64,000 bases of DNA from Cellulomonas sp. NS3 (GTDB lineage Bacteria > Actinomycetota > Actinomycetes > Actinomycetales > Cellulomonadaceae): assembly GCF_024757985.1 (NCBI RefSeq), contig NZ_CP103289.1:2356001-2420000 (forward strand), written 5' to 3'. The notes below the pieces were generated by a model that saw nothing but the letters and a program-made list of their open reading frames with translations, was not told the DNA's origin and did no database searches. Below are positions 32,052 to 35,769 of the stretch, one piece after another (position 1 is the stretch's first letter; the number at the start of each line of letters is the position of its first letter). The position numbers and the translations under genes were made by a program.

Positions 32052-32079
32052 AAATGTCATAATGTGCATTATCGGCGTT
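32052..32079. other. dif: Chromosomal dif site (XerCD dimer-resolution site)
   Basis: A 28-bp site of the 11-6-11 dif plan. On the minus strand the XerC-side arm is AACGCCGATAA, the centre TGCACA and the XerD-side arm TTATGACATTT. The TTATG and CCGATAA cores are those of dif sites, and against the actinobacterial consensus as I recall it about 23 of 28 positions agree. XerC and XerD resolve chromosome dimers here with FtsK, so this should mark the replication terminus. It is AT-rich in very GC-rich surroundings, and intergenic. Confidence 0.85.
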
Positions 32080-32566: not shown

Positions 32567-32598
32567 AATACGGAGATAACGGACATTATCTACGTATT
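32567..32598. other. Lox-like tyrosine-recombinase core site
   Basis: A 32-bp inverted repeat: 13-bp arms AATACGGAGATAA and TTATCTACGTATT, agreeing at 12 of 13 positions, around the 6-bp centre CGGACA. Arm length and centre suit a tyrosine-recombinase crossover site (loxP: 13-8-13; dif: 11-6-11). Both arms resemble the XerC-side arm of the dif 490 bp away (TTATCnnCGT). The recombinase gene starts 885 bp downstream. Confidence 0.65.
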
Positions 32599-33482: not shown

Positions 33483-34646
33483 ATGGGCGGCCTGAGCTTC
33501 GCGGACGAGGTCGACGTCAGCCCCGACTCGCCGCTGCTTCCCGTGTTCGTCGAGTGGGTCACCGTGCTGACCGGCGAGAAGTCCCGGGCCACGGTCCGCG
33601 CGTACGTCGCCGACGTCCAGCTCGTCGCACGCCTGCTGACGGAGATCCTCGGGCGCGAGGTCCCGCCGTCCCTGGACGGCACCGCCTCGCAGCGGGTGCC
33701 GGCGGGTGTGAGCCCGACGACCTATCACGAGACGGTCCGGCTCGTGTCCGTGCTGACGCTCGGCGACCTCCACCCGCGTCACCTCGCGGAGGCGTTCGCC
33801 GCGTTCGGGTCGCGGGCCCCGGACCGGCGCCGCGTCGTGCGGCCCGGGATCGACCCCGAGCCTCGGCGGGCGGCGACCCGCCGGCGTGCCGCGGCCGCGT
33901 GGACGGCCTTGTGCGAGCACGCACGTGCCCATGGCCTCCTGGCCGCGAACCCGATGAAGGACCCCCGGATCAGCAAGGGCCCGAAGCCCACCTACTCCCC
34001 CACGCCGTTCGAGCTCCACGAGGCCGAGCGTCTGCTGCGGACCGTCGCCACGCCCGACGTCGCCCGGACGTCGCGACGCCCGTGGCCCGCCCGCGACCTC
34101 GCGCTCGCGTCCGTCCTCCTGACGTCGGGGATCCGGCTCTCGGAGGCCTGTGCCGTCACGGTCGGCGACGTGCGCGACCTGACCGGGTCACCCCACCTGC
34201 ACGTGCTCGGCAAGGGCAACAAGCACCGCACCGTCCCGCTCGCCCGGGCGACGGTCGGGACCGTCGAGGCCTACCTCGCGCAGCGCGAGGACACCCTCGC
34301 CCGACCGGGGGCCTCCGAGGCGCTCTTCGTGCAGCGCGACGGACGCCCGTTCACGCCACGCGCGATGCAGCACCTCGTCTACCGCTGGTACGCGCGCGCC
34401 GGGATCACACCCCGCGGCGAGTCGTGCGTGCACGCGCTGCGGCACACGTTCGCGACGCAGCTCGTCAACAGTTCGGCGTCGATCGTCGAGGTGATGGAGC
34501 TGCTCGGGCACGAGAGCCTCGACACCACGAAGAGGTACCTGCAGTCGGTCGGGCACGGCCTGCGCGACGCGGTCGAGGCGAACCCCGGCGCGCACCTGGT
34601 GCACGAGGTCACGCGTCCCGACCCGGTCGTCGACGCGCGGCGCTGA
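33483..34646 (+). CDS. Xer-like tyrosine recombinase
   Basis: A 387-residue site-specific recombinase. About 20-160 is the SAM-like core-binding domain, with an insertion at about 60-125 relative to XerC/D. The catalytic domain (about 170-365) has the full set: Arg218 in TSGIRLSEA, a lysine in GKGNKHRTVPL (Lys244 or Lys247), His317 and Arg320 in HALRHTFATQL, His343 in LLGHES and nucleophile Tyr352 in TTKRYLQ. At 387 residues it is longer than XerC or XerD (about 300). It lies 1.4 kb from dif, 885 bp from a lox-like site, and convergent with a degenerate paralogue. Substrate sites are inferred, not shown; it could also be an integrase left by a mobile element. Confidence 0.88.
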   Translation: MGGLSFADEVDVSPDSPLLPVFVEWVTVLTGEKSRATVRAYVADVQLVARLLTEILGREVPPSLDGTASQRVPAGVSPTTYHETVRLVSVLTLGDLHPRHLAEAFAAFGSRAPDRRRVVRPGIDPEPRRAATRRRAAAAWTALCEHARAHGLLAANPMKDPRISKGPKPTYSPTPFELHEAERLLRTVATPDVARTSRRPWPARDLALASVLLTSGIRLSEACAVTVGDVRDLTGSPHLHVLGKGNKHRTVPLARATVGTVEAYLAQREDTLARPGASEALFVQRDGRPFTPRAMQHLVYRWYARAGITPRGESCVHALRHTFATQLVNSSASIVEVMELLGHESLDTTKRYLQSVGHGLRDAVEANPGAHLVHEVTRPDPVVDARR

Positions 34647-34741
34647 CGCAGGCAGCACGGTGCCGGGCAGGACAGTGCCGGGCACCGCCGCGGGCGTCCC
34701 CGGAGCGCGACCGGTCCGGGGACGCGCACCGCGCGCACGCG

Positions 34742-35593
34742 TCAGGCGCGGGCGTCCTCGAGGCGGCCCAGCGCGCGGACGTCCCGGACGCTGACCTCGG
34801 CGACGCGGGGGTCCTCGGCGGCGAGGGCGGCGCGGACGGTCTGGAACGACAGCCGCAGGCCCCGGGCACTGATCGCGAGCCCGGCCGGGGCGATGACGCC
34901 GGTGCGGCGGTCCTTGCCCGGGTGGATCCGGATCCACAGCGCTGCCGGGTCGGAGCCGCTGAGCCGGCGCACGACGTCGCTCCGGGCGGCGAGCCACACC
35001 TCGAGCGAGCGGCGGGCGGGGTCCGGCAGCGGGACGGTCCCGCCGCGCAGGGTCACGACGTCGTGGCGCGGCCCCAGGTCCTCGACACGCAGCCGGGCCA
35101 GGTCGTTCTCGCCGGCACCGGTGGCGGCCAGCAGGTGCACGTGCGCGGAGAACCGAGCCCACACGGCGGCGGGGACTCCCCAGGGGCTTCCCGACGACGC
35201 CATCGACAGCAGGTACCGGCCCGCGCGCGGGTCGTGGACCGCTGCTGCGGTGTCCGGCCTGCTCAGGGCGTCCCCGACGTCGGCGAGCCCGGGCACGAGG
35301 TGGTGGTCCCGGACGAACTCGGTGAGCGCCCGCGCGGCGCTCGCGCGCGCCCGGACGCCGGCGACGGACGCGGGTCGTCCGTCCTCGGGCGTCTCCCGGG
35401 CGGCGAGCCACGCAACGAGGGCCTCGGGCTGCAGCGCGTCCAGGGCCTGGGCGCGCCCGGCCTCCTCCGCGTGCTCGCACAGGTCGCGCAGGGCCCACCG
35501 CCGCTGACGCTGCGTCGACGCGGACGCCTCGAGCCCGGCCAGGTACCGGTCGGTCACGTCGTGGACGGTCAGGGTGCGACCCGCGCTGCTCAT
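34742..35593 (-). CDS. Degenerate tyrosine-recombinase-like protein, catalytically inactive
   Basis: A 283-residue protein with an N-terminal SAM-like domain (about 10-105) and a recombinase-like region (about 145-283). LLAATGAGENDLARLRVEDL (154-173) aligns with the Arg I box of active enzymes, but the arginine is replaced; the lysine hairpin is shortened to TLRGGTVPLP; the HxxR box reads VSVRDVRALG without its histidine; and the chain ends before the second His and the Tyr. The frame is intact with normal codon use, so it looks maintained, perhaps as a DNA-binding partner. ATG 35593 follows TACACC by six bases. An alternative is a C-terminally truncated relic. Confidence 0.7.
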   Translation of the reverse strand: MSSAGRTLTVHDVTDRYLAGLEASASTQRQRRWALRDLCEHAEEAGRAQALDALQPEALVAWLAARETPEDGRPASVAGVRARASAARALTEFVRDHHLVPGLADVGDALSRPDTAAAVHDPRAGRYLLSMASSGSPWGVPAAVWARFSAHVHLLAATGAGENDLARLRVEDLGPRHDVVTLRGGTVPLPDPARRSLEVWLAARSDVVRRLSGSDPAALWIRIHPGKDRRTGVIAPAGLAISARGLRLSFQTVRAALAAEDPRVAEVSVRDVRALGRLEDARA

Positions 35594-35655: not shown

Positions 35656-35669
35656 CGATAACGGAAACA
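35656..35669 (-). repeat. 14-bp inverted element, left copy
   Basis: CGATAACGGAAACA; its minus strand reads TGTTTCCGTTATCG, pointing toward the degenerate recombinase. An identical copy in inverse orientation starts exactly 100 bases later. It shares TnTCCGTTATC with the lox-like site at 32567. Confidence 0.75.
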
Positions 35670-35755
35670 TGCCCCTCGCCTCCCTTTCCTTGCTGACGCG
35701 CGCAGCGCGCGCGCCGGGCTGGCCGAACGGCGCCACGAGGAGGGATGACAAGGCG

Positions 35756-35769
35756 TGTTTCCGTTATCG
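35756..35769 (+). repeat. 14-bp inverted element, right copy
   Basis: TGTTTCCGTTATCG on the plus strand, the exact inverse of the left copy, pointing toward the ligase gene. Either divergent regulator sites or recombinase half-sites. Confidence 0.75.

Follow-up and report, generated by a model that had tools for sequence, protein, structure and literature searches.

A conserved, inactive tyrosine-recombinase-fold protein and polar sites bracketing dif: what looks like an undescribed chromosome-terminus system with fork-trap architecture in Actinomycetota

RTP of Bacillus subtilis is a winged-helix protein that acts as dimers, and the RTP-Ter system has a closely spaced pair of oppositely oriented sites next to the RTP gene. 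According to the cited sections of a 2023 review (PMC10331603), fork traps occur in the Tus-bearing groups (Enterobacterales, Pseudoalteromonas and Aeromonadales) and in some Bacillus, and the review infers that perhaps most bacteria are without one. The same sections describe a ter site in the promoters of both the Tus and the RTP genes, and place dif between the innermost ter sites in the Tus-bearing species examined. Among the matches listed from the open-access literature (most subscription papers and all preprints lie outside it), no fork trap or polar terminus-site system was found in Actinomycetota, and no dead recombinase used in this way. Here we describe what looks like an undescribed system of the actinobacterial chromosome terminus, with the architecture of the Tus-Ter and RTP-Ter fork traps on an unrelated protein. 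A first-pass annotation of this DNA had suggested that it could hold an undescribed terminus-linked recombination or regulatory system; the link to the terminus stands, and no description of such a system was found in that literature.

The analysed window comprises 64,000 bases (2356001-2420000) of the complete 4,776,279-bp chromosome of Cellulomonas sp. NS3 (G000). With dnaA at position 94, the canonical dif at 2388066 (32052..32079 of the window) lies 50.0% round the chromosome. Its minus strand reads AACGCCGATAATGCACATTATGACATTT, with 21 consecutive bases identical to the Frankia alni dif given in the cited part of PMC3025954, and it forms a conserved island in the comparison with the relative G002. 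What had been annotated under the name of dif comprises two separate sites, the canonical one and a lox-like site (32569..32596) ~0.5 kb away. Two recombinase-like genes were found beside dif in convergent orientation, as had been proposed: an active tyrosine recombinase of 387 aa (33483..34646, plus strand), whose gene starts ~1.4 kb right of dif, and an inactive, C-terminally truncated protein of 283 aa (34742..35593, minus strand), encoded ~3 kb from dif, which is the candidate terminus-site-binding protein.

The Pfam scan of the inactive protein returned no family at E up to 1, which places it outside the Tus and RTP families. Weak NCBIfam matches were obtained to NF001399 (E 0.0018) and to XerC (E 0.014), the latter at 14.8 bits against an equivalog cut-off of 335, and XerD was not matched, so that the protein does not qualify as XerC or XerD. 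A PDB sequence search gave three rows, none of them a recombinase. Comparison of the inactive-protein profile with Xer proteins (hhalign) gave a probability of 97% (E 4.5e-11), and the best 50 PDB matches of the predicted model (pLDDT 79.6, pTM 0.54) in Foldseek were all tyrosine recombinases (XerA, Tn1549 Int, Cre, lambda Int and XerH), the best being XerA at E 7.3e-5, with low TM-scores of 0.26-0.44. By profile and predicted structure, the protein has a tyrosine recombinase fold. Among 16 homologues, Pfam at E up to 0.01 gave PF00589 alone, in three of them. Five of the 16 family members matched PHROG phrog_6657, an unnamed phage protein family (best E 4.5e-6); a tblastn search of phage records with three members gave no match, and PADLOC added nothing.

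The inactive copy had been annotated as keeping its fold and open frame, lacking each catalytic residue and stopping before the tyrosine. Fold, frame and the stop ahead of the Tyr position stand, and so does the loss of Lys and of Arg-I, which is Gly here (TGAGE), but the wording was slightly too strong for the HxxR Arg, which seems to be retained (RGLR in the alignment with Xer proteins). The Arg-I position is Gly in the Cellulomonas rows, and an Arg is retained in the Quadrisphaera and g63 rows. The aligned family has no conserved C-terminal Tyr, and the inactive protein is without the full R-K-HxxR-H-Y set of a catalytic tyrosine recombinase. The hallmark GSDPxALWxRxxPxxDxRTGxxxPAGLxxxxRGLR was found in most of 16 aligned members. 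In the Quadrisphaera versions (L014:1486-2778, L131 and L132) a long and variable insertion of low complexity interrupts the catalytic-like domain in its middle.

The inactive protein recurs in several actinobacterial genera and is under purifying selection: dN/dS is ~0.10 (NG86, G000 versus G002), with 12, 14 and 83 differences at codon positions 1, 2 and 3. Orthologues with open frames were found in the genus and family at 92, 57, 55, 54 and 50% identity, and those at 50-57% exclude a reading frame that is open by chance. An order-wide search detected the protein at E 1e-12 in 18 of 396 genomes. Seventeen weak matches (L015-L031) had no dead-recombinase reading frame, L026 being an ordinary Xer, and 18 of 29 further inspected loci were rejected as family members because the active-site pattern is retained. 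Among the other 11, L338 yielded no reading frame, L334 resembles an ordinary Xer interrupted by Ns and L333 has a largely spurious frame; the remaining eight (L329-L332, L342-L344 and L350) look like true members, five of them with a motif-like upstream site.

Two inverted elements lie upstream of the inactive gene, at 35656..35673 (plus strand, CGATAACGGAAACATGCC) and 35752..35769 (minus strand, CGATAACGGAAACACGCC), and both contain CGATAACGGAAACAYGCC. The first-pass annotation had grouped such inverted elements with dif and the lox-like site and had proposed a test for inversion or excision products; neither is implied, since the two elements are convergent copies of a polar motif found again at other places around dif. 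The motif CRATAACGGAAACANGC occurs only five times in the 4.78-Mb genome, always within 124 kb of dif. A search of the whole chromosome with RATAACGGAANCANG, allowing at most one mismatch, gave 2264573+, 2351501+, 2391657+, 2391754- and 2437594-, with no match for the reversed control, and the pattern CGATAACGGAAACA returned the identical five sites. The outer three are plus to the left of dif and minus to the right of it, and the close pair lies 3.6 kb to the right of dif and is convergent. In a weight-matrix scan of 404 kb the five sites reached 30-34 bits, against 15.2 for the runner-up position and 10.8 for shuffled sequence. Because the five are among the 18 training sites of the matrix, what counts as evidence is the gap to the runner-up and not the score. 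The 12-base core GATAACGGAAAC has one exact match away from the terminus (4648727+) and two with a single mismatch (116500- and 3663343-), all lacking the flanking bases. A control set of 33 two-mismatch matches away from the array was reduced to 32 by leaving out 2388575, the lox-like site; 14 of the 32 were concordant with dif, a random proportion.

The convergent pair upstream of the inactive gene was also present in G002, G003, G005, G006, G051 (where one half has two mismatches) and G067. Clade-specific convergent pairs were found in the Quadrisphaera group (G067, G130, G144, G157, G170 and G196), one site in four g20 genomes and two same-direction sites in six g63 genomes, and in most genomes read a Ter-like pair or site lies upstream of the gene, in its putative promoter. 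The upstream site was not clear in G222, L343, L350, L385 and L386, nor in the partner half of G434. The site reads GATAACGGAANCANGC in Cellulomonas and GATAACRGAACC, RATAACRGAANCNNG, GATAACAGGCY or GATAACAGCAAG in other clades, the motif changing together with the protein clade. Seven gene-bearing genomes contained 24 matches, 15 of them perfect, against three to the reversed pattern, while 17 relatives without a credible homologue gave 17 of each and none perfect, which is background. Clade-specific scans of 11 whole genomes yielded 60 matches against three reversed ones. The six g63 genomes yielded 59 against 14 for the control pattern, indicating that some of the g63 sites are chance matches.

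Polar, oppositely oriented sites bracket dif, as in fork traps. In 15 gene-bearing genomes that have sites and dif on one contig, every isolated site points towards dif (55/55), and the order of plus sites followed by minus sites is perfect in all 15 contigs. When members of close pairs were counted the figure was 63 of 71, because both members of some close pairs lie slightly to the same side of dif. The polarity count excluded sites off the dif contig (one each in G002, G157, G144 and G067, three each in G170, G222 and G227, and six in G122), two sites of G434 that could not be placed, the pair-only genomes G003, G005, G006 and G051, and, in G188, eight of 11 sites at distances from dif above 340 kb; all eight are concordant and would raise the count to 63/63. 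In G188 all 11 motif matches are in the replichore orientation, including weak ones at distances of up to more than 2 Mb from dif, a hint of motif strand bias or of far-flung sites. The gene contigs of G162, G175 and G250, outside the polarity count, show the same plus-then-minus order.

Our preferred reading, at a rough probability of 0.45, makes the inactive protein a polar roadblock that binds at the terminus, most likely one against replication forks. Judged from sequence, the protein probably binds the polar sites. It would do so sequence-specifically and with one polarity over 15-20 bp, and the recognition would be inherited from the Xer half-site, with GATAA common to both. At the upstream pair, or at the single or two same-direction sites of some clades, it would repress its own promoter. 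The further sites flank dif on both sides and are directed at the terminus, and protein bound there would show one face to it. Such a complex would be a one-way block, so that forks could enter the terminus region and could not leave it. Published features of fork traps (PMC10331603 and PMC8707476, cited sections) include a small number of polar sites, their opposite orientations, the position of dif between them and a site in the promoter of the protein's gene, and for this reason fork arrest is ranked first and a translocase roadblock second. A wider proposal, which we put forward tentatively, is that this would be a third, independently evolved bacterial fork trap, derived in Actinomycetota from a dead Xer-type recombinase, and that the gene-plus-pair version on Streptomyces plasmids may be its mobile ancestor.

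The same binding system could have another client, which we consider possible but unlikely: at the terminus the bound protein would stop DNA translocases (SMC/condensin or FtsK) in one direction or mark where they are unloaded. The inactive protein is Xer-derived, dif and the lox-like site both have the site core GATAA as their inner arm, and XerD-mediated SMC unloading at dif is described in the cited section of PMC13342612. A translocase client would also fit the pair-only genomes G003 and G005, in which sites do not bracket dif: over the 400 kb read the pair stands alone, at a distance from dif of 89 kb in G003 and 113 kb in G005. In a fork trap the skew switch usually lies at the sites. 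In these two genomes, however, the GC3 skew, corrected for gene strand, flips at 15-17 kb to the left of dif (permutation p 0.014 for G003 and 0.016 for G005) and not at the pair; a convergent pair should halt forks from both sides and so have shifted the flip, which indicates no such halt over evolutionary time in these two genomes and counts against the preferred reading. In Cellulomonas sp. NS3 no GC3 skew flip was detectable (p 0.56), and plain GC skew over 404 kb of the terminus was also flat. On the other hand, a likely XerD is also present and could do this job, fork traps are the systems known to combine strict polarity with a site in the promoter of the gene, and nothing in these data indicates contact with SMC or FtsK.

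An autoregulated transcription factor, with the upstream pair as operator and the outer sites as further operators, would explain why most genomes have a pair or site ahead of the gene, and why nothing else is present within 400 kb in G003 and G005 or on two complete plasmids. Thirty-three Streptomyces plasmid records (92-438 kb) encode a homologue of the inactive protein, annotated "hypothetical protein" in nearly all, among them NZ_CP109386.1 (L378, L379) and NZ_CP101138.1 (L380-L382); a search of plasmids with the Cellulomonas protein itself gave no match. The two Streptomyces plasmids that were read completely carry the gene without dif, one upstream convergent pair (GATAACAGCAAGAAGC) and no further site, and their skew was uninformative; they also encode ParAB, their own dnaE and a type I-E CRISPR-Cas system. 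In eight more plasmids the motif pair was recognisable in four (in one of them ahead of the preceding gene), a less similar inverted repeat was present in two, and two had none; three of the ten Streptomyces plasmids opened are linear according to their records. More distant partial homologues of the g63-clade protein were found in NC_006912.1, NC_013449.1 and 12 other Streptomyces plasmid records (36-186 kb); some are annotated as tyrosine-type recombinases, and they may sit near the family root. Pair-only genomes and plasmids together suggest that the pair alone has a job other than fork trapping, or that arrest is weak. Regulation as the whole function is nevertheless improbable. Operators would not sort by strand about dif in 15 of 15 contigs. 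By approximate GC3 gene calls, which are incomplete and missed the inactive gene itself, the site at 2437594 in Cellulomonas sp. NS3 lies between two gene 3' ends, which makes it an unlikely operator; by the same calls, none of the five sites overlaps a gene.

The first-pass annotation had suggested that the inactive protein could bind DNA as a partner, or serve as directionality factor, which would be for the active recombinase at dif or the lox-like site. DNA binding is probable; the partnership is very improbable. In its favour, the two genes are adjacent and convergent in G000 and G002, beside dif and the symmetric lox-like site. However, G003, G005, G006, G051 and G067 have the inactive protein with matches to the active one only at XerC/D level, and the polar sites are at neither dif nor the lox-like site. 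In a survey of 99 relatives that took matches down to E 1e-20, only G002 had a close orthologue of the active protein (90%), and G073 and G090 had relatives at 42-45%. The reading of the two genes as a pair thus fails, since several relatives retain the inactive protein without the active one, and a two-protein recombination system was rejected on the same ground. Linkage to dif elsewhere, expected of both genes, does not hold for the two together; the inactive gene alone is usually close to dif (0.5-37 kb in the contigs examined, 89 kb in G003 and 113 kb in G005).

The active recombinase is accordingly regarded as a lineage-specific neighbour without a constant role as partner. It scored 108.9 bits against PF00589 in the Pfam scan, and R, K, HxLRH, H and Y are invariant in a 14-row alignment that includes it, in agreement with the full R-K-HxxR-H-Y active site first read from its translation. 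It falls far under the NCBIfam equivalog cut-offs for XerC (150 of 335 bits) and XerD (121 of 330 bits); two stronger PF00589 matches elsewhere in the genome are likely the host XerC and XerD. Its dN/dS is 0.13 (G000 versus G002). The lox-like site is nearly symmetric, with arms TACGGAGATAA and TTATCTACGTA around the spacer CGGACA, and forms a 32-bp conserved island in a stretch that is otherwise poorly conserved in the comparison with G002. The arms are identical at 10 of 11 positions here and at 11 of 11 in G002, where both carry the same A/G difference, so that the symmetry seems to be under selection. This site is probably the target of the active recombinase and probably lies outside the polar-site system. 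Recombinase and symmetric site would probably form a lineage-specific single-recombinase system, which is a separate matter.

Truncation and the loss of catalytic residues would suit a decaying recombinase pseudogene with a coincidental motif, a reading that the dN/dS of 0.10, the open frames at 50-57% identity and the motif statistics make negligible, and the copy is retained as first supposed, with no neutral decay.

If a disarmed recombinase does run this dif-bracketing site system of several actinobacterial genera, terminus marking would have evolved again, from the dimer-resolution machinery itself. With concrete sites and a single gene, the purpose of fork trapping (or of SMC unloading) at the terminus, a long-standing question, becomes testable in a new phylum. 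The polar sites also serve as practical terminus markers for genomes with weak GC skew.

Among known systems, Tus-Ter resembles the present one in having few polar sites, in two oppositely oriented groups about dif, with a site in the promoter, as described in the cited parts of PMC10331603 and PMC8707476. Tus-Ter belongs to Enterobacterales and others, whereas the system described here is found in Actinomycetota and has an unrelated site and an unrelated protein of tyrosine recombinase fold without a Pfam Tus match, with arrest as a putative function. RTP-Ter of B. subtilis likewise has a terminator site in the promoter of its gene (PMC10331603, cited section), but the protein here is Xer-derived. 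In the unloading of SMC by XerD in B. subtilis, a Xer protein acts at the terminus other than by recombination (PMC13342612, in the section cited); there the agent is XerD itself, and here it would be a dedicated inactive paralogue with strictly polar sites. XerCD-dif, XerS/difSL and XerH/difH have in common with the present system the fold, the GATAA inner arm and the nearness to dif, and differ from it in that the protein here has no catalytic Tyr and its sites are single polar elements rather than two-arm sites of 28 bp. The active recombinase next to it, with the symmetric lox-like site, may belong to the Xer systems of this kind. KOPS, the guides of FtsK, are numerous. They are also oriented from origin to terminus on each chromosome arm, and according to the cited section of PMC2680272 they are 8 bp long, whereas the polar sites described here span 15-20 bp and number 1-13 matches per gene-bearing genome.
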